Shown here: positions 8,579-46,838 of the stretch, piece after piece | How the letters are laid out: every line of letters begins with the position of its first letter | Position numbering within the stretch: position 1 is the first letter of the stretch | Source of the DNA: Mesobacillus subterraneus | GTDB lineage: Bacteria > Bacillota > Bacilli > Bacillales > Cytobacillaceae | NCBI RefSeq assembly: GCF_000934845.1 | Contig: NZ_JXIQ01000016.1 | Span: forward strand, 62,001 to 126,000 | Length of the DNA: 64,000 bases | Direction: 5' to 3' | Program-made: the position numbers and the translations under genes | The notes under the pieces: generated by a model | The model's input: only the letters and a program-made list of their open reading frames with translations | The model's database searches: none | What the model was told of the DNA's origin: nothing

Positions 8579-8617
8579 ACTCAATACTTAATATATTAGA
8601 CTTTGGAGGGAATTATT

Positions 8618-9838
8618 ATGAGGAAATTGCCGTTTGTTATTGAATTAGAAGCCAAAAGAAGCTTTGAGTTTTTCTGGAATGAAGCGAATACGAACCCTGA
8701 TTCACCAGGATACGGACTGATTCTGGATCAATCTGCAAACAAGGAAGTTGCGAGTATTGCCTCTGTAGGTTTCGGTCTTACGGCAATAATAATTGGCATC
8801 GAAAGAGGATGGATCACAAGAGAAGAAGGTTACGAAAGAACAAAAGGTACCCTGAAGACCTTCTGGAATAATGTTGAACATGAAAGAGGCTTTTTCTATC
8901 ATTTTTTAAATATGGAAACAGGCAAAAAAAATGAATCTTTTTATGATTGTGCTTCCATCATTGATACTTCTATCCTATTAAATGGAGCCATAACCTCTGC
9001 TGAATACTTTGGTGGCGAGATTGCTGAACTCTTTGAGAAAATCTACGATCGTGTTGATTGGATGATGTATTATGATCATTCAGTCAATCAGTTTTACATG
9101 GGCTACAAACCGGAGACAGGAGGCTTTCACCATTGGGACATGTATGCTGAACAAATGATGCAGTACATTCTTGGAGTTGCTTCAGAGACGCATCCTGTCC
9201 CAGTGAAGATCTATGAGGGTTTTGAGAGAAGGCTGGGGGAATATGGCGGTTATGAATTTTATAATTCACCAGGTGGCAGCCTGTTCACACACCAATACTC
9301 CCATGCTTGGTTCGATTTCAACAAATACCTCGACAGTGATGGAATCGATTGGTTTGAGAATTCAGTAAAAGCATCAAAGGCGAACCGTCAATATTGTATC
9401 AATGAACATGGAAATTTTAAAACATACCACGAAAATTCATGGGGTCTTACAGCATGCTCTACCCCAAATGGATATGGCGGTCCAGGAACACCACCTTATC
9501 ATCCGAATGTAACATCAAAAAATGATGGAACAGTTGCGCCATCGGGAGCAGCAGGATCGATTGTTTTTACACCAGAAGAATCGATTTCGGCTATGGAATA
9601 CTATTATGGCAAACATTCAAAGCTATGGGGAGAATACGGCTTTGTGGATGCGTATAATTTGGATGTCACCCCGGAGTGGTACGCAAATCATGTCATCGGA
9701 ATCGACAAAGGCATTACTCTTTTAATGATTGAAAATTACCGATCAGGCCTTGTCTGGGACTTATATATGAAAAACAAAGTTGTTCAAAAAGGAATTAAGT
9801 TGCTGGATTGGAATAAAAAGGATTCCGGATCTTTGTGA
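8618..9838 (+). CDS. Glycoamylase-like protein, likely GH144 endo-beta-1,2-glucanase family
   Basis: ATG at 8618 has GGAGGG 8 bases upstream and gives 406 residues; an in-frame start 15 bp earlier lacks a ribosome site. The protein shows hallmarks of the Glycoamylase domain (PF10091) and GH144: FFWNEANTNPDSPGYGLILDQ near residue 16, SIASVGFGLTAIIIGIERGW near 46, a central W/H/D-rich stretch FHHWDMYAEQMMQYI, and NSWGLTACSTPNGYGG near 280. GH144 enzymes cleave beta-1,2-glucan to sophoro-oligosaccharides. No signal peptide is visible, so it probably acts in the cytoplasm, perhaps on imported chains. The family call is strong; the substrate rests on family and on the GH94 and GH3 neighbours. Confidence 0.8.
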   Translation: MRKLPFVIELEAKRSFEFFWNEANTNPDSPGYGLILDQSANKEVASIASVGFGLTAIIIGIERGWITREEGYERTKGTLKTFWNNVEHERGFFYHFLNMETGKKNESFYDCASIIDTSILLNGAITSAEYFGGEIAELFEKIYDRVDWMMYYDHSVNQFYMGYKPETGGFHHWDMYAEQMMQYILGVASETHPVPVKIYEGFERRLGEYGGYEFYNSPGGSLFTHQYSHAWFDFNKYLDSDGIDWFENSVKASKANRQYCINEHGNFKTYHENSWGLTACSTPNGYGGPGTPPYHPNVTSKNDGTVAPSGAAGSIVFTPEESISAMEYYYGKHSKLWGEYGFVDAYNLDVTPEWYANHVIGIDKGITLLMIENYRSGLVWDLYMKNKVVQKGIKLLDWNKKDSGSL

Positions 9839-9959
9839 GGGAAGACTATACAAACTTGAATGCTTTTTTGGCCGCTATCTTTTTACTTAACAACGAAGTT
9901 CGAAAAAATTAGTCTATTAATTGATAAATGCAGAATGCTAAGGGAAGGAAGTGTTAGCG

Positions 9960-12371
9960 GTGATAGAAATCAAAGACAAACAAATTGTTATAGACGGTAA
10001 ACCTGAGCTTATCATGGCTGGAGAAATCCATTATTTTAGGCTCCCACCAAGTGAATGGCAGGATCGCTTAGATAAATTAAAGCTTGCCGGCTGCAACGCT
10101 GTTTCTACATATGTTCCCTGGTTGATCCACGAGCCGACAGAAGGGAAGATTGACCTTATCGGTAAAACTCGTCCCGAACTGGATTTGAAAGGGTTCATTG
10201 AGCTTTGTGAAAAGAATGATTTCTACTTTTTCCTTCGCCCGGGCCCATTTATTATGGCGGAAATGAAAAATGAGGGACTACCATTTTGGATTTATGAAAA
10301 ATATCCAGAAGTTATTCCGACAGGCTGGAACAAAAAGACAGCGACTACGAAGACTATTGATTATCTGGCTCCGCGCTTTTTAAATGCTGCAAAGAAGTGG
10401 TATAAGGCAGTTGTCGAAACGGTAACCCCCCACCTTCACCAAAATGGTGGAAAAATCATCGCTTTCCAACTTGATAATGAGATTGGTATGCTTTCCTGGG
10501 TCAGCAATACACCTGATTTGACTGAAAACGTCCTAATGGATTTTGCTGCATGGCTCGAAAAAGAATATAAGCCTGAGGTACTCTCTGAAAGGTATCCATT
10601 TGATTTACGCGAAATGCAAGCGCGAAATAATGCGATTCGGTCACCAAAGGAATCTTATGCACCGCAGCTTATGAAAGATCTTGGTTATTATATGAGAAAT
10701 CGTTTTGCCAGATATGTCGCCACCCTTCGTGGCTATGCTGAAGAGTACGGAGTGAAAAATATTCCTTTCGTTGTGAATATTCACGGGACGGGCGGCCTGA
10801 GAGGTTTCACATTCCCCATTGGCATTAGTCAGCTGTACGAGTCATATACCCAGGGACCTGGTTATCTATCAGGCTCTGATATCTATTTTGGAGATTTAGA
10901 GATGAATAACTTTCAGGATCTTTATTTGATCAATGGTTTCATGGATTCAGTCCATCTTCCGGATCAGCCGCTGACATCCGTAGAATTCAATTGCGGTGAT
11001 GGAAATTTTGGAAATACCTACGGTGGCCGATATGATCCATCAGCAGCTGATCTGAAGGCGAGAATGTGCATTGCTCAGGGAAATCGCATGATCAATTATT
11101 ACCTGTTCACAGGTGGTTATAACTTTCGGTGGGATGTCCCTCTTAATGATGGAAATGACCGAATCGCTTTTACAGGCGAAAGGCATGGTTTTGCTGCACC
11201 TGTCAGTCCTGAAGGCGAGCTTAATTATACATTCCCGAGAATGGCTAGGGGAATCAGGACGATAATGGCAGTGGCAGAAAAGGCGGCTGCCATGGATGAG
11301 GAGCGAGATGATGTCAAATTTGCTTTCATTCCGGATTATTATATGACAGAATACCGCTATGCAAAGAGTGAGAAAATGGCTGCAATTACCGCCAATCTTG
11401 AAGCTAATCGCGCCTCCGGATCATGGGAAATGATGGCGAGAGGAATGCTACTATCAGGTTATCGTTTTGGAGCTACAGATATCCAGAATAGGCCACTTTC
11501 TCCTAAAGAAACTCCGGTTCTCGCGCTGCCTTCTGCCAGGTATATGAGTGCGAATATCCAGCTAAAGCTAGTGGAGTATATGGAAACAGGAGGCGGAGTT
11601 CTTCTTTATGGAGAGGTTCCACAATATGATATGGAGGGAAAGGACTGCACGATTCTGGCAGATGCCTTTGGCGTTAAGCATAAGGGAATACTGAGGGATT
11701 CTGGGGAATTTTACTTATCCCTCTATGCAGACGGATGGGCTGCTCCAAGACCGGAGATTCGTTCATATTTTGCTCAGGTGTTTGACGTGGACAAAACCAC
11801 TCCGCTTTTCAGAGTATATGGAACCGATGAAGTTTGTGGTTTTCAGACAAGCAATGGAAAGGGAGGAGCCATTGTTATTGCCGGAGCTCTCCCTGGAGAT
11901 TTTCAGTTTATCAAGGAGGCACTAGAAAGGCTAGGCGCAAAGGCTAAGTTAACACATGATTTCAAAGATCATGGAATTTTCATGACGTCTACAGCCAACA
12001 AGGAAGGGGAAAGATTCATCCATCTGCTGAATCTAGACGGTTTTGATAAGAGCTTCCATATCTGTGAACAAGGTACAGTTTTGTTCGGTGGGAAAGAAAT
12101 AACCCTTCAGTGCAAAGAGGGCGTCATGCTTCCCTTCAATATGGCATTCGGTAACAGGAAAATCGTATGGTCTACAGCTGAAATCATAGCTATTAAGGAA
12201 GATTCAATTGAATTCCGTCTGACACAAAACCAGGATGTAATCGCCTTCAAAGCAGGAGTTGGAATAAAACCTTCTGAAAACTACGAGTTAAAGTTTGAAG
12301 AAACATTAGTGAAAGTAATTTCAAAGAATCATAGCAAGGTTAATGACCAACTGATTGTCCATTTTGCTTAA
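9960..12371 (+). CDS. GH35-family glycosidase or transglycosylase
   Basis: GTG at 9960 is chosen because AGGGAAGGAAG ends 9 bases upstream; the in-frame GTG at 9951 would overlap that site. The 803-residue product has the GH35 N-terminal barrel: MAGEIHYFRLPPSEWQDRL, then NAVSTYVPWLIHEP and FFLRPGPFIMAEMKNEGLPFW, with QLDNEIG (about 170) likely carrying the acid/base Glu and TSVEFNCGDG (about 345) the nucleophile Glu. Such proteins are normally called beta-galactosidase. In a beta-1,2-glucan locus another role is plausible, because a GH35 member from Ignavibacterium album encoded beside endo-beta-1,2-glucanase homologues transfers glucosyl units on beta-1,2-gluco-oligosaccharides. No signal peptide is seen. 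Family certain, activity open. Confidence 0.85.
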   Translation: MIEIKDKQIVIDGKPELIMAGEIHYFRLPPSEWQDRLDKLKLAGCNAVSTYVPWLIHEPTEGKIDLIGKTRPELDLKGFIELCEKNDFYFFLRPGPFIMAEMKNEGLPFWIYEKYPEVIPTGWNKKTATTKTIDYLAPRFLNAAKKWYKAVVETVTPHLHQNGGKIIAFQLDNEIGMLSWVSNTPDLTENVLMDFAAWLEKEYKPEVLSERYPFDLREMQARNNAIRSPKESYAPQLMKDLGYYMRNRFARYVATLRGYAEEYGVKNIPFVVNIHGTGGLRGFTFPIGISQLYESYTQGPGYLSGSDIYFGDLEMNNFQDLYLINGFMDSVHLPDQPLTSVEFNCGDGNFGNTYGGRYDPSAADLKARMCIAQGNRMINYYLFTGGYNFRWDVPLNDGNDRIAFTGERHGFAAPVSPEGELNYTFPRMARGIRTIMAVAEKAAAMDEERDDVKFAFIPDYYMTEYRYAKSEKMAAITANLEANRASGSWEMMARGMLLSGYRFGATDIQNRPLSPKETPVLALPSARYMSANIQLKLVEYMETGGGVLLYGEVPQYDMEGKDCTILADAFGVKHKGILRDSGEFYLSLYADGWAAPRPEIRSYFAQVFDVDKTTPLFRVYGTDEVCGFQTSNGKGGAIVIAGALPGDFQFIKEALERLGAKAKLTHDFKDHGIFMTSTANKEGERFIHLLNLDGFDKSFHICEQGTVLFGGKEITLQCKEGVMLPFNMAFGNRKIVWSTAEIIAIKEDSIEFRLTQNQDVIAFKAGVGIKPSENYELKFEETLVKVISKNHSKVNDQLIVHFA

Positions 12372-12426: not shown

Positions 12427-13782
12427 ATGTTGCGTAAACAAAAGAAAATCTCGATCCTGATTTTAGTCTTTGTTGTTGTAGTCGCAACATCACTAATTTT
12501 GTCTGCAATAAACAAGGCGAAGGAGGAATGGAATTTTAAAAAGGAACTAAAAACGATCGCAGAAGACACGTATCGCTACTTTGAGGATTTCACGGACTAT
12601 GAAACTGGCTTGCCTTATGATATTGTCCGAATAAAAAATGAAGACCTAGAGGAAGGCAAGCATACATCTCCGACCAATATAGCTATGTATATGCTGAGTA
12701 CTATTTCAGCGGATGAACTAGGTTTTATTTCCGGGAAAGAAGCAATCAGCCGTATTCAAAAGATACTGAACACACTGGAGAAGATGGATAAATGGAACGG
12801 CCTTTACTATAATTGGTATTATACGAAAGATGGGTCAATAATGAAGGACTGGGGTCAGTTCATTTCCCAGGTTGACAATGGTTGGCTGTCAGCAGGCTTG
12901 ATTACTTCCGGCCAAGCATACCCCTCCTTGCAGAGCCAGACTAGCAAAATTGTAAAAAGTATGGATTTTTCTGCTTTATATGATCCAAAAGTTGGTCAGT
13001 TCCGCGGAGGATATTTTGTGGATAAAGGAGAATACACCGGACATCACTATGGAACTTTTTATACAGAACCTCGTCTGGGCAGTTATATAGCAATTGGAAA
13101 AGGGGATGTTAGCGCAGATCATTGGTGGAAAATGTATCGCACTCAGCCTGCAAAAGATAACTGGCAATCCCAGACTCCAAAAGGAGAAATGCGGAATTAT
13201 CACGGGATTGACTTGTTCCAAGGACATTATGAATACAACGGAGTGAAATATGTTCCCACATGGGGCGGAAGTATGTTCGAGGCTATGATGCCCGGGATGA
13301 TCATGAAAGAGAAAGAACTTGGGAAGAATGGGCTTGGTTTGAACAATCAGCATTACGTCAACCTTCAAATTGCATATGCCAAGGAGAAGGGATACTCTGC
13401 CTGGGGTTTATCTCCGGCAGCCACTCCTGATGGGTATAGTGAATTTGCTGCTACTCCGTTAGGAATTTCCGGCTATAAGGATGATGGCACCGTTACAGCA
13501 TATGCATCATTTCTTGCCCTTGAATATGCAAAGCAAGATGTCATGGAAAATATAAAGGTGCTAAAGGAAATGAAAATCTACGGCAAGTATGGATTCTATG
13601 ATTCTGTCAATTTGAATACCAATAGGGTTACAGAAGCCTATCTTGCTCTGGACCAGGGAATGATCATGGTTTCAGTTACGAATTATCTTTTGGATGGAAT
13701 AATACGTGACCATTTCCACAGTAATAAGATTGCCAGCGAGGCTGAATATCTGCTTTTAGAAGAGGATTTTATGATCCGATAG
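12427..13782 (+). CDS. Membrane-anchored DUF3131-type putative glucanase
   Basis: A 451-residue protein with one N-terminal membrane segment (residues about 9-29, rich in I/V/L) that would anchor the rest outside the cell. The body shows a DUF3131-like pattern: TSPTNIAMYMLSTISADELGF, WNGLYYNWYYTKDG and FISQVDNGWLSAGL, which also resembles the glycoamylase module of cyclic beta-1,2-glucan synthases and the wider GH144-related clan. It is plausibly the extracellular enzyme that starts glucan breakdown, with the protein at 8618 acting inside; this is inference. ATG has AAGGAGGTG upstream. The gene ends the operon at a strong terminator. Confidence 0.7.
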   Translation: MLRKQKKISILILVFVVVVATSLILSAINKAKEEWNFKKELKTIAEDTYRYFEDFTDYETGLPYDIVRIKNEDLEEGKHTSPTNIAMYMLSTISADELGFISGKEAISRIQKILNTLEKMDKWNGLYYNWYYTKDGSIMKDWGQFISQVDNGWLSAGLITSGQAYPSLQSQTSKIVKSMDFSALYDPKVGQFRGGYFVDKGEYTGHHYGTFYTEPRLGSYIAIGKGDVSADHWWKMYRTQPAKDNWQSQTPKGEMRNYHGIDLFQGHYEYNGVKYVPTWGGSMFEAMMPGMIMKEKELGKNGLGLNNQHYVNLQIAYAKEKGYSAWGLSPAATPDGYSEFAATPLGISGYKDDGTVTAYASFLALEYAKQDVMENIKVLKEMKIYGKYGFYDSVNLNTNRVTEAYLALDQGMIMVSVTNYLLDGIIRDHFHSNKIASEAEYLLLEEDFMIR

Positions 13783-13865: not shown

Positions 13866-14831
13866 TTATTTTACCGAATCACCTTCAAAAAGGCTTACCT
13901 GGATGACTTGCTTTTTCTGAGCTGCTTCCACTCCGCTGATGGTAGCCAGTAAGGCATCTGAGGCAAGAGCACCCCAGCTTTTCTTTGAATAGGCAATCGT
14001 TGTCAGTCTCGGAACAATATATGCCGATACTTCAATATTATCGAAACCAATGATATTGATATCTTTGCCGATTTCATACTCTGTTTTAGACAAATAATCG
14101 TACATGCCGATGGCCATTTCATCGTTGAAACAGAACACTCCAACAGGCCCATTAAATCCAGTGGTAATTTGTTTCGCCGCCTGTTCCCCTGATTCTTTGT
14201 TGAAATGACCAGGAATCTCGGTATACTGAATGTCTTTATGCTGAGTCATCAAGCTCCTGACTGATTCAAGACGTTTGATGGAATCATAGGAATCAGATGG
14301 GCCTGTTACTGCGTAGATTTTTTTTAATGCTGCTTCAATAAGCCTGCCAATCGCCAGTGCTGCTCCGGTTTTGTTGTCAAGGAGGACCTGGGTGATATTA
14401 GGGTGATCGAGCTCACGGTCCAACACAACAATTTTATGACCCCGCTCCGCATATGAAATTAATTCAGAATTATCAAAATTCGCATCCAAAATGATTGCTC
14501 CATCAATCATCCGTTCAGGTAAGAATCTGTGGGATTGTTTTCCAGTGCAAACAATCAACTCATAACCATTTTTGGTAAGTGCTTCACGCATTCCCTGCAG
14601 AAGTTGTCCATAAAAGGATCCGCTATAGTCTGTTAAAAATGCTCCTATAATCCTTGTTTCCCGCTTTTTTAAGTTACGGGCAGCTGCATTAGGAATATAA
14701 TTTAATTCCTTTGCAACTGCCAATATCTTTTTTCTCGTCTCCTCTGTGACTTTAGAGCTGCCATTTAAAGCATATGAAACAGTAGAAATTGAAACACCCG
14801 CACTCTTCGCGATATCTTTTATGCCTGCCAC
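13866..14831 (-). CDS. LacI-family transcriptional regulator
   Basis: A 321-residue repressor. Residues 1-22 are the classic LacI helix-turn-helix, IKDIAKSAGVSISTVSYALN, followed by the hinge helix (NYIPNAAARNL) and a periplasmic-binding-like ligand domain with GAFLTDYSGSFYGQLLQG and VFCFNDEMAIGMYDYL. It most likely senses a sugar from beta-1,2-glucan breakdown and controls this locus. A perfect 20-bp palindrome with the central CG typical of LacI-family sites lies just upstream of the GH3 gene at 20539-20558 and is the best candidate operator in the window. Confidence 0.93.
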   Translation of the reverse strand: MAGIKDIAKSAGVSISTVSYALNGSSKVTEETRKKILAVAKELNYIPNAAARNLKKRETRIIGAFLTDYSGSFYGQLLQGMREALTKNGYELIVCTGKQSHRFLPERMIDGAIILDANFDNSELISYAERGHKIVVLDRELDHPNITQVLLDNKTGAALAIGRLIEAALKKIYAVTGPSDSYDSIKRLESVRSLMTQHKDIQYTEIPGHFNKESGEQAAKQITTGFNGPVGVFCFNDEMAIGMYDYLSKTEYEIGKDINIIGFDNIEVSAYIVPRLTTIAYSKKSWGALASDALLATISGVEAAQKKQVIQVSLFEGDSVK

Positions 14832-14963: not shown

Positions 14964-17900
14964 TTACAAAGCTTCATTACATATATATATATCAATCATA
15001 TTGTTTTTTGCCAAAAGCTTTTCGTCAAGCAATTCCTTGCTGATTAGGAAGCCTCCTTGACGATAACGGTTTGATAGAGCAATTGCTTCGATTTTTTCAC
15101 CATTAATTTCGACAGTTTGATTTTGGCTGCCTTTTAAATGGTAGTTAAAGGTTATCGGCTTGTTTTGATAGGTGAATTTAAACCTTAAGCCATCCAACTC
15201 GGAAGGAAGAATTGGGTCAATGATAAGATCCCCTGATTTCCTGCGTATTCCCAAGCTATTTGAGACCAACTGATTCATATAGATCCCAGGACCGCTAGAA
15301 TAGATACGCCATCCGCCCTTTACAGGGACAGTACCTTTTCTTAATTCATCGAATCGTTCTTGTGCCTCGTAGCGGTTATTAAATTTACCATCTGAACTGC
15401 TGAAATATGCATTGCTTTGGCGTAATTCTGCATTTGGTACAGCATCCTGGAGACGGACTGGATTGATCATTTCCAACCCTTTCCATACTTCGTTAGTCTT
15501 GCCGAGTTTCGCCATTGCTTCAACAAAGCGGATGTGAGCATGCACATATTGAAGCCCGATTTCACGTCCGAAATTCGCTGCCTGTTCTGCCCGTTTAAAG
15601 TTGGTACTAACGCCGCCTTCATATTGGGCAGGACGATTCATCAGGCGAACGCCATCCGGGCAGTACAATTTTTCCTTTATCAACTTATAATGGTTCTCTG
15701 CCTGTTCTGGTGTCAGTAATTCACTGATTATGCTTCTTGTCATTGGCAACAGGCGATAATGGATACCCGTTTTTGTGTCCTCTGGATGAACCATCAATTC
15801 TAGCTTTCCGGGCTCCTCCATATAGACGAACCCAGGAACCACATCGGTTTGCAGCAAATATTTGTTAAAGTCTGTCTCAATGCCATCAGCCAGTGCCTTT
15901 AATTCCCTTGCCTCATCTGCTTCAACGCTTTCAAGAACACTCGAAAGAGTATTCAGTGCTTGATACGTAAGGGATACTGTCCAACTGCTGATCATATATT
16001 GCTTCAATTGTGCGTTTGCAGGCTGAAGCGTATCATCCCAATCACCGTCTCCATAGGAAGAAAGGAAAGTATCATGCAGGAAGTGGTCCTTAATATACTG
16101 GATTTCCTTCTTCGCATGCTCAAGAATCGTCGCTTCCTCTTCAGTGAACAGGAAGCTGCCTCTTATCGTATAAGGAACTTTTTCCTTTAAAAAAGCAAAA
16201 TCACTGGTTACCCTTAAATAATCTGCGAGGACCTTTAATGGCCAGACAATAATATCCCCGTGGCTTTCATCTGCTTGGATCCGGAAATAATTATCGAACA
16301 TAAACCATTGCGGCCAGTTCCCATCATCCTCAAATTGGTGTTTATAAACAGTTTTAATAATTTCTTTTACCGTATAGTCATTTTGGTTTGCCAGAAAGTA
16401 TTCCACTGGCCCCTGGCAAACATCCCGGGTTCCCCAAGCGGCGCCGCCATATTGTTCAAGGCCGTGGGGGACAGAGAAGTGAACAAGCATATTGTGTGTA
16501 TACCACCATGCCAGCGCATTAACTTTTTCGATTGAATCTCCGGAATTATCTTTTGATAACTTAAAGTCGTTCATCACTTTTTTGAAATAGCTGCGGTACT
16601 TAGCAATCTCTTCGCCCTTTGTTCCTTTGAACAGAGGGATTTCTTCACCATGAAGAAGTCCTTGGATGGTCATTGTCCATTGGGAGGACTTCTCCAGTTT
16701 CAATACAACCAAGCTTGAGACATCGGTTGCAAAGTCTGGAGAAAATACTTCTTCGCCTGCCAAGTTCATCTCTGCACCAACCAAATGGAGGCGATAACTA
16801 AGATTAGGGTATGTTTGGCCACTATCAGATCTTTCGTCAGCACGGAAGGTAATTGTCTGGCCTTCATTTTCGATATGGAAAGGCACTTCGTACTCATTTC
16901 CGTTCATCGTCACCTGATTCGTAACAATGAAACGGTAATCTTTTCCTAGTGATGATTTCACGTTCAGGATCAGCTCTGGTGAATCGACAGCAGTGAAGTT
17001 CGTAACAATGATGGTGTCTGCAGCAAATTTGTAATACCAGCGTGTGTAATTGAATCCCATTTCAAACAGTGAAGGCATAGTTAATTGTCGAAACTTGCCT
17101 TCAAGCTCGATATAGAGTCGCTGACCACTGGTTTTCAGAACGTTTAACGCGTTGCGTGCATTTGTCACCATTTTATTGAAGGATGTATTTCCAACAACGA
17201 TTTGGGAATTGAAAATTCCATACATATAGGATGTTGTCGTCAAAGTGTTGGATTTTATGGAATCATTGTTTCCTGTCATCACGATTGTTCCATGCGGGCG
17301 CTCAACTAAAAGTTCCTTTTCTTTTAGAACGATATGTTCATATGTTGCAGTAAAGAAACTGAGCAGAGTGCCGTCTTTAGATTCCTCGAGGATCCGCTTG
17401 GGGAAAAGGTTGTCTATTTCTTCACTGGTGAACTTTTCAGTTTTAATTGGGCTTCCAAAGGTCTCTGATAAATGAATCTGTGGAACATCATTCCAATTAC
17501 TATCAGTAGTTTGTATTGCTTTCCATGTCTTTTCAACTTCATCTCGAAATTCAATTTCAGTAACTGCTTCAGTGTGATTTTCTTTGAATAAACTGTAAAA
17601 AATGAATTGTTCCTTGCCATCGATCAAAACTTTGGCAGATTGTAATGCAGCGAATGCAAATTCATACTGATATACATAATTTGGCAATTCTAATTTTTTC
17701 AGCGCTTCTGGCTTATTAGTTTCCTTGTAGGATAATCCGTAAAACTGGAAACCGTCTGTTAAATAGCCGGTTGTCTTTGTAAGCGAACCTTGCTGCAGGT
17801 AGGGAAATCCTCCTGGCTGTGGCATATTCTGTCTTGAACAAATGACATAACCATTATTATCATTAAATACTTGATGATCAATATATTGCGACATATAAGA

Positions 17901-18317
17901 TTCATTGGATCTTACTGCTCCCTGGCTGGCAAGGCCGATATCTTGTGCGTAAATTACATCTACCTCCGCACCTGAACCTTCTAGTTCGACATTCCAGAAC
18001 CACACGCCGGATTCGCTAAGAATGAACGTGACTTTATATAATATCTGTCTCGCTGTGCCTTCCCAGACAACCTTCTTGTCTGAGTGTTTTAATGTGCTTT
18101 TTGACTTTACTCCTAATAATGGAACTGCATCTACAACCTCCCGCTCATCAAAAAAACGTAAGTAGAGATTATTTAGCGATCCGTCCACCGGGTTGCCAAT
18201 GATCTGGTTTAGCATAATATGTTCATGTGTTGCAATGTAGAGGTCACCTGTGTTAAGAAATGTGAAACAGAACTTGCCTTCTTCAATTGTAAACATTGAT
18301 TCTTTTAGGATTGGCAT
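14964..18317 (-). CDS. GH94 1,2-beta-oligoglucan phosphorylase (SOGP-type)
   Basis: An 1117-residue protein, nearly the length I recall for the Listeria innocua sophoro-oligosaccharide phosphorylase and longer than cellobiose phosphorylases (about 800). Features: a beta-sandwich N-terminal half, then the alpha/alpha barrel with WWYTHNMLVHFSVPHGLEQYGGAAWGTRD-type sequence near 604-632, GDIIVWPLKVLADY near 687-700 and the GH94 catalytic motif YGDGDWDDTLQP at 755-766. The family splits beta-1,2-glucosyl chains with phosphate, giving glucose 1-phosphate and a shorter chain in the cytoplasm. ATG has TGGAGG upstream and lies 14 bp after the GH3 gene, so they are co-transcribed. Specificity is inferred from length and context. 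Confidence 0.85.
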   Translation of the reverse strand: MPILKESMFTIEEGKFCFTFLNTGDLYIATHEHIMLNQIIGNPVDGSLNNLYLRFFDEREVVDAVPLLGVKSKSTLKHSDKKVVWEGTARQILYKVTFILSESGVWFWNVELEGSGAEVDVIYAQDIGLASQGAVRSNESYMSQYIDHQVFNDNNGYVICSRQNMPQPGGFPYLQQGSLTKTTGYLTDGFQFYGLSYKETNKPEALKKLELPNYVYQYEFAFAALQSAKVLIDGKEQFIFYSLFKENHTEAVTEIEFRDEVEKTWKAIQTTDSNWNDVPQIHLSETFGSPIKTEKFTSEEIDNLFPKRILEESKDGTLLSFFTATYEHIVLKEKELLVERPHGTIVMTGNNDSIKSNTLTTTSYMYGIFNSQIVVGNTSFNKMVTNARNALNVLKTSGQRLYIELEGKFRQLTMPSLFEMGFNYTRWYYKFAADTIIVTNFTAVDSPELILNVKSSLGKDYRFIVTNQVTMNGNEYEVPFHIENEGQTITFRADERSDSGQTYPNLSYRLHLVGAEMNLAGEEVFSPDFATDVSSLVVLKLEKSSQWTMTIQGLLHGEEIPLFKGTKGEEIAKYRSYFKKVMNDFKLSKDNSGDSIEKVNALAWWYTHNMLVHFSVPHGLEQYGGAAWGTRDVCQGPVEYFLANQNDYTVKEIIKTVYKHQFEDDGNWPQWFMFDNYFRIQADESHGDIIVWPLKVLADYLRVTSDFAFLKEKVPYTIRGSFLFTEEEATILEHAKKEIQYIKDHFLHDTFLSSYGDGDWDDTLQPANAQLKQYMISSWTVSLTYQALNTLSSVLESVEADEARELKALADGIETDFNKYLLQTDVVPGFVYMEEPGKLELMVHPEDTKTGIHYRLLPMTRSIISELLTPEQAENHYKLIKEKLYCPDGVRLMNRPAQYEGGVSTNFKRAEQAANFGREIGLQYVHAHIRFVEAMAKLGKTNEVWKGLEMINPVRLQDAVPNAELRQSNAYFSSSDGKFNNRYEAQERFDELRKGTVPVKGGWRIYSSGPGIYMNQLVSNSLGIRRKSGDLIIDPILPSELDGLRFKFTYQNKPITFNYHLKGSQNQTVEINGEKIEAIALSNRYRQGGFLISKELLDEKLLAKNNMIDIYICNEAL

Positions 18318-18331
18318 GATATAGCCTCCAT

Positions 18332-20522
18332 TTATGTTTTTTTAAGAGTAAAAGAAAGGGATTTGACGTCCAGGCTGTTTGGCCCTATATATGCTGTAAA
18401 TAATCCTGGATCACTTTTATACTCCGTGTTGGCATGATGATATTTAAGCATATCTTCAGTAATGGTGAATGTAATTTTCTCCAACTGCCCTGGTTCCAAT
18501 CCAATTTTTTTAAATGCTTTCAATTCTTTGATAGGTCTAACTACCTCACCTGACATGTCTCGGAGATAAAGTTGAACAGTTTCTTCACCGAAAACACTAC
18601 CTGTATTTTTTATAGTCACAGAAACAGTGATTGATGAATCAGGATTGAATTCGTCTGATGAGATAGCAGGATTACTGTACTCAAAGCATGAATAACTTAG
18701 ACCAAATCCGAAAGGAAACAGTGGGCTATTAGGTATATCAAGATATTTTGAGACATAAGCCTGATCATCTTCATCATTTGCCTTTGGGCGGCCAGTGTTA
18801 AAGCTATTATAGTAAACAGGAATCTGACCAACTGAATAAGGGAATGACATTGACAAGCGTCCAGAGGGATTTATATCGCCGAATAAAATGTCAGCAACTG
18901 CTACGCCACCCTCAGTTCCAGGGTACCAAGCTTCAAGAACTGCATCTGCTTCATCAATTACTCCATGAAGATCAAGCGGCCGCCCATTGAAGAGGACTGC
19001 TACCATTGGTTTTCCAAGTGCATGAAGCTTCCTGACCAGTTCAATCTGGACTCGCGGCAGTTTGATATTAGCCCTGCAGTTGGCTTCTCCGCTCATTTCT
19101 GATTTCTCCCCGAGTGCTAGGACCAGGATATCTGCTCCCTTTGCAATTTCAATAGCAGCTATTAATTGTTCTTCAGTCCCCACATCTATTTCACAGCCTT
19201 TGGAGCTGAGAACGAGAGAGGTATCAATTTTTTTCAAGACACCTTCACGGAGTGTCACTGCGTCTTCTCTTTTACCATGCCAAGACCAGGATCCCAGAAT
19301 ATCGCTGTTTTCAGCAAACGGACCAATAAGTGCAATTTTCTGATTAGACTTTAATGGAAGTACTCCATTGTTTTTTAACAATACACAGGATTTTGCTGCA
19401 ACTTCTCGTGCTATCTTCCTATTAGTATTAGAAAGAACGACTTCTTTTTCCTTATCTACGTCGGCTCCTCTGTATGGATTCTCGAATAATCCTAATTTAG
19501 CTTTTAACTGAAGAATACGGAGAACGGCTTCATCTATGAGATTCTCCTCTAACACTCCATTGTCGATAAGCTTTTTCAGGTTGTTTACATAGCAGTGTGT
19601 CATCATGTCAATATCAACACCCGCTTCGATTGCAAGCAAGGCCGCTTCCGTTTCATCGCTTGCGACACCATGGTCGATCATCTCTCTGATGGCATCCCAA
19701 TCGGATATCAAAACCCCTTCAAAACCCCTTCAAAACCCCTTCAAAACCCCACTCATCTCGCAAAATACCACGCATCAGGGGTTTATTTCCAGTTGCCGGA
19801 ATTCCGTCTACAGTATTGAAAGAAGTCATGACCATCTCACAGCCTTCCTCAAGAGCAGCCTTATAGGCAGGAAGATATTGTTCACGAAGTGTTCTTTCAG
19901 ACATATCGACTGTATTATAATCACGTCCTCCTTCAGCGGCACCATATGCTGCGAAGTGCTTGACACATGCGGCAACCCGTGTATAGTCATTTGTTAAATC
20001 AGAACCCTGGAAACCACGTACGAAGGCTCTTGCAAATAGACTGTTTAAGTATGGATCTTCACCGGTAGATTCCATTACTCGTCCCCACCGCGGATCGCGA
20101 ACCAAATCAACCATGGGAGCGAAGGTAACATGAACTCCGGATACTGCTGCTTCATGCGCCGCAATTGATGCTGACTTTTCGGCTAATTCAGCATCCCATG
20201 AACAGCCGATTGCAAGCGGAATGGGGAAGATGGTTTTGAAGCCGTGTACTACATCAGCCATAAATAATAAAGGAATGCCGTTTCTGTTTTCTTCTAAATA
20301 TTTCTTTTGGATTCTAATTATTTCTTTTGCACCTGATGCACCAAGCACAGAACCTGAATTTCTAACTATTTCTTCTGATATCCCCATTTCTTCAAGTGGT
20401 CCTGTTATTTTCCCTCCATCAGAAGCTCCCTTATAAAACGGAGTTGCTAATTGGATAAGTTGGCTAATTTTTTCCTCTAAAGTCATTTTATTTAATATTT
20501 CTCCGATTTTAACGTGAGCCAT
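18332..20522 (-). pseudogene. GH3 beta-glucosidase gene interrupted by tandem-repeat frameshift
   Basis: Two adjacent reading frames, 20522-19719 (267 residues) and 19711-18332 (459 residues), make one GH3 enzyme. The first ends RDEWGFEGVLKGF then stop; the second resumes as ISDWDAIREMIDH. The unbroken motif would read GFEGVLISDWDA, where the Asp of SDW is the GH3 nucleophile. The break is 22 extra bases (two surplus 11-bp units); removing them leaves exactly 723 codons. Other GH3 signs are FAPMVDLVRDPRWGR, KHFAAYGA and the C-terminal fibronectin-like domain. In beta-1,2-glucan pathways the GH3 enzyme hydrolyses sophorose. As written the protein is inactive unless the repeat contracts. An assembly or sequencing error is possible. 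Confidence 0.88.
19710..19750. repeat. 11-bp tandem repeat inside the GH3 gene
   Basis: Three contiguous copies of AAAACCCCTTC (plus strand) at 19710-19720, 19721-19731 and 19732-19742, then 8 bases of a fourth. In the GH3 reading direction the unit is GAAGGGGTTTT. One copy gives an open frame; each extra copy shifts the frame and brings in TGA. Confidence 0.95.
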
Positions 20523-20538
20523 CTATATTCCTCCAATC

Positions 20539-20558
20539 TTATCGAAACGTTTCGATAA
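20539..20558. promoter_or_regulatory. Candidate LacI-family operator
   Basis: TTATCGAAACGTTTCGATAA is a perfect 20-bp palindrome with a central CG, the usual form of LacI-family sites. It sits 16 bp before the GH3 start and just downstream of the -10 box, so a bound repressor would block transcription of GH3 and GH94. The LacI-type gene at 13866 is the obvious candidate regulator. Confidence 0.75.
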
Positions 20559-20562
20559 TGAA

Positions 20563-20591
20563 ATTATAAACGCTTACACATATGCAGTCAA
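20563..20591 (-). promoter_or_regulatory. Sigma-A promoter of GH3-GH94 operon
   Basis: Read on the minus strand: TTGACT, 17 bases, TATAAT, a near-consensus vegetative promoter. The palindromic operator starts about 4 bp after the -10 box. Confidence 0.8.
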
Positions 20592-26020: not shown

Positions 26021-26160
26021 TATTGGCGAAAATCTGATTTTATTGGCGGTTTTCACAAGTTTATTGGCGAAAAAATAATTTTATTGGCGAAAACCAAGAT
26101 TTATTGGCGAAAATAAAATTATATTGGCGAACTGGAAATTTTCAATGATTTTTTCCAGTT
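26021..26160 (+). repeat. 140-bp element: six phased TATTGGCGA copies plus hairpin
   Basis: TATTGGCGA (second copy ends GGCGG) begins at 26021, 26041, 26062, 26082, 26102 and 26122, a spacing of 20 or 21 bp or two helical turns. The element ends in a hairpin, AACTGGAAA at 26130-26138 with TTTCCAGTT at 26152-26160. A same-length inverted copy lies at 46699-46838. Here it fills the gap between the ferredoxin and Mrp genes inside the operon, where it could act as a protein-binding array or shape the mRNA. Confidence 0.93.
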
Positions 26161-31476: not shown

Positions 31477-31646
31477 TGAAAGATACCCTTATGCAAGCGA
31501 ACCTGTCCCCATAAGGGTACCATTCTGGATGAAAGATACCCTTATGCAAGCGAACCTGTTCCCATAAGGGCACCATTCGAGGTGAAAGATACCCTTATGC
31601 AGGTGAACCCATCCCCATAAGGGTACCATTCGGGTCGAAAGATACC
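31477..31646. repeat. 53-bp tandem repeat, three full units plus a partial fourth
   Basis: Units start TGAAAGATACCC at 31477, 31530 and 31583, each exactly 53 bp apart, with an 11-base remnant at 31636. Each full unit contains ACCCTTATG about 16 bases before CATAAGGGT or a close variant, so each can form a 9-bp stem. Units differ at several positions, so they are old enough to have diverged. No open frame runs through the array. Confidence 0.93.
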
Positions 31647-31700
31647 GTTAATTTTTTCGAATAGACTAAAAGAGGGCTATTACATAGCGATTTTTCGGTT

Positions 31701-42209: not shown

Positions 42210-42631
42210 AGAATCAGCCTCCTTTCCATTGCAAGATTTACCTATTTATACCCTTCTTCAGCAAAGAATAACAAATTTTAGCCGGAAGAGTAGTTTTAGG
42301 AACGATCCTGTTCTGCCTGATTGAGGCAAGAGAAAAAATTGTGTATCGCCAATAAAGTTGTGAAAATCGCCAATAAAATATATCATCATAGTCAATATCG
42401 CCAGAATGGAGACTGAACTAAGAAGAATCGCATTCGTAAACGATCGCTTTCGGGAAGAAAAGTTCGCCAGACTTTTTGAAGAAGCGAAAGTAGCAAGCAC
42501 TCGCTCCTCGGCATTTTTTTCCTCAGCATCGAACTCCCCAGCACCTTCTTTCGCGACAGTTTTTTGCTCTTGCCCTTTTTTCAAAAAAGAGTAGAATGGA
42601 AATTATCGTTTAAATGAAGGAAGGAAACATC
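42210..42631. other. Intergenic region, about 420 bp
   Basis: Holds a partial TATTGGCGA-type element (42346-42406), then 190 bp in which weak open frames run on both strands without ribosome sites. The EamA gene's ribosome site is at its right end. Confidence 0.4.
42346..42406 (-). repeat. Partial copy of the TATTGGCGA element
   Basis: TCGCCAATA (inverse orientation) at 42346-42354 and 42367-42375, 21 bp apart, and a degenerate TCGCCAGAA at 42398. The spacer between the first two, read on the minus strand, is TTTTCACAACTT, nearly identical to the spacer after copy two or three of the full elements, so this is a shrunken member of the same family. Confidence 0.8.
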
Positions 42632-46698: not shown

Positions 46699-46838
46699 AA
46701 CTGGGAAAAACACGTGTTTTTTTCCAGTTCGCCAATAAATCCTGGAAATCGCCAATAAAATGAAAAAATCGCCAATAAAGTTGTGAACTCCGCCAATAAA
46801 TGAAAAAAATCGCCAATAAAAATAGGAAATCGCCAATA
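46699..46838 (-). repeat. 140-bp element: hairpin plus six phased TCGCCAATA copies
   Basis: The mirror image of 26021-26160 and exactly the same length. TCGCCAATA copies begin at 46729, 46749, 46769, 46790 (first base C), 46810 and 46830, spaced 20, 20, 21, 20, 20. The hairpin at 46699-46729 has CTGG and CCAG arms around a near-palindrome, AAAAACACGTGTTTTT. It lies after the activator gene and could also act as its terminator. Confidence 0.93.

Follow-up and report, generated by a model that had tools for sequence, protein, structure and literature searches.

An 11-bp tandem repeat splits a GH3 β-glucosidase gene of Mesobacillus subterraneus ahead of its nucleophile, most likely by a recent slippage mutation

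Results

The split GH3 gene and its neighbours

The window, a stretch of 64,000 nucleotides from Mesobacillus subterraneus, lies inside contig C68 of a 3.9-Mb draft genome of 208 contigs. It carries a gene that, judged from its sequence, is a GH3 β-glucosidase of the Lin1840 (sophorose) type, split by a tandem repeat tract (Table 1). The gene adjoins that of a 1,2-β-oligoglucan phosphorylase (SOGP), which is followed by a LacI-family regulator gene, and the genes beyond these encode a GH35-like protein and two PF10091 proteins. We take the PF10091/DUF3131 protein encoded at 12427-13782 to be probably an endo-β-1,2-glucanase of the GH144 type, and the second PF10091 protein (8603-9838) is presumably of that type as well. 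The SOGP, LacI and GH35 genes of the window match their homologues over nearly their whole length, and a SOGP neighbour was found in all eight related stretches (L035, L037-L043).

A promoter-like site and a perfect palindrome precede the GH3 start. The scanned region holds 35 promoter-like sites against 21.2 (sd 4.7) in shuffled sequences, so such a site by itself says little. The palindrome recurs with 0-2 mismatches in eight of the eight related stretches scanned, a count that has no shuffled control beside it, and is probably a LacI-type operator.

Table 1 Features of the GH3 locus, with positions in the window.
Feature	Position	Strand	Description	Method
Second PF10091 protein	8603..9838	+	411 aa	
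GH35-like protein	9951..12371	+	806 aa; beside LacI-SOGP-GH3 also in sister locus L040	
PF10091/DUF3131 protein	12427..13782	+	451 aa	
LacI-family regulator	13866..14831	-	Full-length, 321 aa	
SOGP	14964..18317	-	1,2-β-oligoglucan phosphorylase, full-length, 1117 aa, adjoining GH3 downstream	
Downstream GH3 half	18332..19711	-	459 aa from TTG; nucleophile SDW, remainder of N-terminal domain, C-terminal and Fn3-like domains	
11-bp tandem tract	19708..19750	-	3.9 perfect copies of GGGGTTTTGAA	Tandem Repeats Finder
TTG	19709..19711	-	Candidate restart of downstream half, 7 nt past TGA, AGGGG 2 nt ahead	
Premature TGA	19719..19721	-	Within third unit, after TTT (19722-19724) and AAGGGG (19725-19730)	
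Upstream GH3 half	19719..20522	-	267 aa; GH3 N-terminal domain, profile positions 1-247 of 316	Pfam
Palindrome	20541..20556	.	ATCGAAACGTTTCGAT, perfect, 16 bp, between promoter-like site and GH3 start	
Promoter-like site	20563..20591	-	TTGACT-17-TATAAT, 11/12 matches, upstream of GH3 start	

The tract breaks one reading frame at the nucleophile

Tandem Repeats Finder assigned the tract (19708-19750) a period of 11, 3.9 copies and 100% matches; it is the same tract that the first-pass annotation had placed at 19710-19750. Read on the minus strand from 19750 to 19708, it consists of four copies of GGGGTTTTGA with a single A between copies and zero mismatches. The upstream frame (20522-19719) terminates in ...EWGFEGVLKGF-stop and the downstream frame (19711-18332) opens with (M)ISDWDA. 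As that annotation had stated, two surplus 11-bp copies lie between GFEGVL and ISDWDA, and the tract is thus 22 bp longer than an open frame permits. Their deletion leaves 2169 of the 2191 nt, i.e. one frame of 723 codons including the stop. Apart from the tract, no other stop or frameshift was found in the gene.

The two halves complement each other. In the Pfam comparison the GH3 N-terminal domain runs to profile position 247 in the upstream half and resumes at position 249 in the downstream half, where the GH3 C-terminal domain and then the Fn3-like domain follow. The domain set required of a GH3 enzyme of this type (N-terminal, C-terminal and Fn3-like) is therefore complete, spread over two frames instead of the single open frame expected of a Lin1840-type gene. 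For both halves the best solved relative is Lin1840 of Listeria innocua (PDB 4zoa), and against it the break falls between L267 and I268 with no residues missing between the halves, just ahead of the nucleophile D270, which is the D of SDW in the downstream half. Equivalents of D91, R149, K191, H192, D270, E473 and R572 are present across the two halves, and that of Y583 was also counted in the Lin1840 alignment; the roles of the catalytic and subsite residues are taken from PMC4757417. There, D270 is described as the nucleophile and E473 as the acid/base, mutants of either had no detectable activity on pNP-β-glucoside, and sophorose was the β-1,2-glucooligosaccharide on which the enzyme acted best, with laminaribiose hydrolysed too. 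The window gene thus shares with Lin1840 its active-site residues, including R572 and Y583 of subsite +1, and a SOGP neighbour; it differs in being cut, whereas the frame of Lin1840 is uninterrupted.

The tandem pattern is confined to this gene. Pattern GGGGTTTTGANGGGGTTTTGA had three matches in the 3.9-Mb genome, each within the GH3 tract, which rules out a mobile or dispersed 11-bp repeat. The 23-mer AAGGGGTTTTGAAGGGGTTTTGA had no match in the genome contigs searched, a set from which the genome itself is possibly absent. We also scanned 90 stretches (the window, L035-L043 and L055-L134; 750,004 bases with some overlap) for perfect arrays of at least three copies of a 5-25-bp unit. Four such arrays were found, and only the tract of the window falls in a conserved gene; around the other three (one in L040 and two in L089) all stop-to-stop frames are of 137 codons or fewer.

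Repeats of other kinds occur elsewhere. Arrays of TATTGGCG with a spacing of 20-21 bp occur in the window at 26021-26131 and, in the opposite orientation, at 46729-46838, and also at about 42346-42374. The paired TATTGGCG pattern was matched 60 times across 13 contigs of the genome, with 33 matches forward and 27 reverse, whereas the reversed control had 0; the matches form short clusters of a repeat that is dispersed and evenly spaced. An intergenic region of the window (31477-31650) holds 3.3 copies of a 53-bp unit, each with inverted arms CCCTTATG...CATAAGGG, and a degenerate 13-bp array, GGTAGTACAGGGT, lies downstream of the Cohnella thailandensis GH3 gene (L089, 5519-5620).

Homologues are open across the site

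The site was compared in 110 loci, namely the 30 best genome-search matches (one of them the genome's own paralogue) and 80 of at least 560 relatives; 51 of the 193 genomes of the family had some match. Of the 110 rows, 105 could be scored by a motif search; the five unscored ones, inspected separately, are open too. Five other rows are duplicates, leaving 105 distinct genes. All 105 distinct homologues among the matches listed are open across the site with no extra unit, and none carries the tract. Matches were also found in 21 plasmid records, all at 60-80% identity and none covering 80% of the query.

The two 10-mers that correspond to the repeat were compared with each other in the 105 scored rows. 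They agree at 3 (5 rows), 4 (26), 5 (32), 6 (23), 7 (17) or 8 (2) positions, against 10 of 10 in the expanded state of the window gene. Among the compared loci only the window gene has a perfect repeat, and only it is broken. Since its copies may have been evened out, the full agreement describes the expanded state and need not hold for the state that preceded it.

A second locus with an intact GH3 gene

GH3 N-terminal domains are encoded at four places in the genome, on contigs C185, C144 and C34 and, in two pieces, in the window. The C34 paralogue has an intact frame of 723 residues with 78% identity to the N half of the window gene and 64% to the C half. Its locus (L035, C34:30000-47000) also contains a full-length SOGP gene, one of two in the genome, a LacI gene, a gene for a GH13-type protein and ABC-importer-like genes. 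FastTree phylogenies of each half (106 rows) place the window gene as sister to L010, which also appears as L079 (Bacillus sp. FJAT-27445), with supports of 0.949 and 0.998. The C34 paralogue, in turn, is 89% and 85% identical to two genes of its own genus (L004 and L006, respectively). The two loci thus differ in ancestry, and by their sequences one genome would hold two presumed β-1,2-glucan loci of different origin.

The first-pass annotation had read the break as the only lesion of the pathway and predicted the loss of sophorose hydrolysis. The first part stands as far as the gene is concerned: the tract is the only lesion seen in it, lies at the nucleophile and looks as a product of slippage would be expected to look. 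The predicted loss does not follow. An intact GH3 gene sits beside the second SOGP and LacI genes, so we would not expect sophorose hydrolysis to be lost, the activity of the C34 enzyme being itself predicted from its gene, and we dropped a loss of sophorose use as an interpretation.

Age of the lesion and the case for an artefact

The synonymous distances are mostly saturated, that to the sister gene included, so a dN/dS test of decay was dropped and decay was judged by relative rates alone, which cannot date the lesion. With five outgroups per half, the relative-rate tests against the sister were not significant (chi2 0.04-2.46 for the N half and 0.05-3.28 for the C half). The sign is mixed across outgroups in the N half; in the C half all five comparisons lean to the window gene (changes window:sister 40:38, 38:30, 41:29, 47:31 and 44:31), a non-significant lean that points towards relaxation. 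In both trees the window gene ends on a long terminal branch, of 0.186 against a median of 0.078 (rank 93 of 106) in one and 0.283 against 0.096 (rank 95 of 106) in the other, as is also expected of a gene with one near relative. These rates fit a lesion that arose long after the gene parted from its sister, and they do not separate a natural mutation from an artefact of culture or assembly. The homologues examined are open, no other lesion was seen in the gene, and its promoter-like site, operator-like palindrome and the active-site residues checked are in place, so the lesion is probably either recent or an assembly error.

The main rival to a natural mutation is accordingly an artefact of assembly or library, or a mutation of the laboratory culture, the natural allele having two units and an intact gene. 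The assembly is a draft in many contigs, the break is a singleton against all distinct homologues among the matches listed, and the rest of the gene lacks significant decay. A survey of frame transitions in prokaryotes (PMC3711429) attributes unclustered cases either to a recent indel or to a sequencing error, and for singletons with BLASTp support it expects the latter and not a genuine indel.

The setting of the tract speaks for a correct assembly. It lies at 81708-81750 of the 127,540 bp of its contig, far from either end, and its 43 bp are shorter than common short-read lengths. Assemblers collapse repeat units more often than they add them. The change amounts to two whole units, a size that, like the place of the tract inside a long contig, would speak against a plain error, and the neighbouring SOGP, LacI and GH35 genes match homologues nearly end to end. 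We therefore regard an artefact as unlikely, while giving it more weight than any other alternative.

Only two units are readable

The number of units was varied from one to seven and the frame followed through the tract. Only two units (strictly 1.9) can be read through; one unit shifts the frame, and each of three to seven units leads to the TGA in the third unit. The earlier proposal that the gene could switch back on with one unit left is thus contradicted, one unit being out of frame and two in frame. The codons of the two-unit state, TGG GGT TTT GAA GGG GTT TTG ATA, hold GGGGTTTTGA twice, 11 bp apart, so that even this state would offer slippage a direct repeat in tandem to start from.

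In reversible phase variation, slippage would alter the unit number and so switch the gene in some cells. Like repeat contingency loci, the window gene has a perfect in-frame tandem repeat with a unit that is not a multiple of three, and a promoter-like site and an operator-like palindrome stand ahead of it. It departs from such loci in most other respects. As two is the sole readable count among one to seven units, the tract would make a poor switch: a slip of one unit from four to three is still OFF, and getting from four to two takes either a deletion of two units or two slips with a further OFF state between them. Four units are few, and the tract is absent from all homologues examined among the matches listed. 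The product is a metabolic enzyme and apparently cytoplasmic, the N-termini of the window and C34 proteins showing by eye no evident signal sequence, and an intact paralogue stands as backup. With one readable unit number and no tract in the homologues, phase variation was rejected as the leading reading and we hold it to be improbable; a switch is not demonstrated here.

Slipped-strand mispairing reportedly occurs in the Gardnerella sialidase gene nanH3, going by the title of a 2021 study by Kurukulasuriya. The likeness would be repeat slippage in a glycosidase gene; enzyme and organism are unrelated to those studied here. A literature search on repeat-driven frameshifts gave no matching report under strict terms, which says little, and one on duplication and reversion gave only loosely related reports.

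Residual translation across the tract

The third unit reads AAG GGG TTT TGA, and the downstream frame is the +1 frame. The added units might thus supply both a Shine-Dalgarno-like AAGGGG and a slippery TTT_TGA: tRNA-Phe in the P site would move on by one base and pair with UUU again, the +1 slip would absorb the 22 bp, and a low level of full-length GH3 enzyme would result, down-tuned and with a seven-residue duplication before the nucleophile strand. Read from codon 31 with a single +1 step at the third unit's TTTT, the gene does stay free of stops to its end and gives 699 residues, the seven of KGFEGVL being surplus. The fold is kept in a model built for this product on 46 aligned sequences, which has a mean pLDDT of 81.2 and a pTM of 0.85; its residues 231-234 are of low confidence and its nucleophile strand spans 240-242, while the control model of the C34 paralogue (45 sequences) reached 83.9 and 0.86, with that strand at 264-266. 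Such a model shows neither a frameshift nor enzyme function.

The prfB gene of the same genome offers a comparison. Its site, AGG GGG TCT CTT TGA C, has AGGGGG 3 nt before CTT_TGA_C. Both sites have a slippery P-site codon followed by TGA, a Shine-Dalgarno-like sequence upstream and a downstream frame at +1. In the tract, however, AAGGGG abuts TTT (a spacing of 0 where prfB has 3 nt), TGA is followed by A and not by C, and the site is unconserved (0 of the 105 distinct homologues among the matches listed). The terms tried in PMC5009743 and PMC12421855 yielded nothing on UUU UGA. Lacking the 3-nt spacer and the C of prfB, the tract is very unlikely to recode. If it did, a slippage mutation would have created its own recoding signal.

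Least credible of all is a two-piece enzyme, in which the downstream half restarts at the TTG and associates with the upstream half. The TTG is in the correct frame and close behind the TGA. The suggestion that AGGGG serves as its ribosome site is at best weak: the nearest copy is 2 nt and the preceding one 13 nt ahead, and the usual spacing to the start is about 5-9 nt. The split also parts the equivalents of D91, R149, K191 and H192 from those of D270 and E473, and in the paralogue model it falls in the strand leading to the nucleophile.

Discussion

The split is genuinely present in the sequence as assembled, and we consider it most likely to be a recent slippage mutation. In the reading that we prefer and hold to be probable, a recent slipped-strand expansion inactivated a redundant GH3 β-glucosidase of the sophorose type. 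The codons for WGFEGVL would have happened to give two like 11-bp stretches in tandem, and replication slippage at this direct repeat would have added two units (+22 bp). Ribosomes in frame would then reach the TGA of the third unit and release a fragment of 267 residues, which would have neither the nucleophile nor the last part of the N-terminal domain nor the C-terminal domains. The breakage is probably tolerated because the second locus carries an intact GH3 gene and a SOGP gene. We infer that slippage was the mutational event, that its cost is low and that the assembly is correct at this site.

A broken enzyme gene with a backup would be an ordinary case. It would show that codon choice alone is able to build a slippage-prone repeat, and it is a reminder to scan the whole genome before predicting that a pathway is lost.
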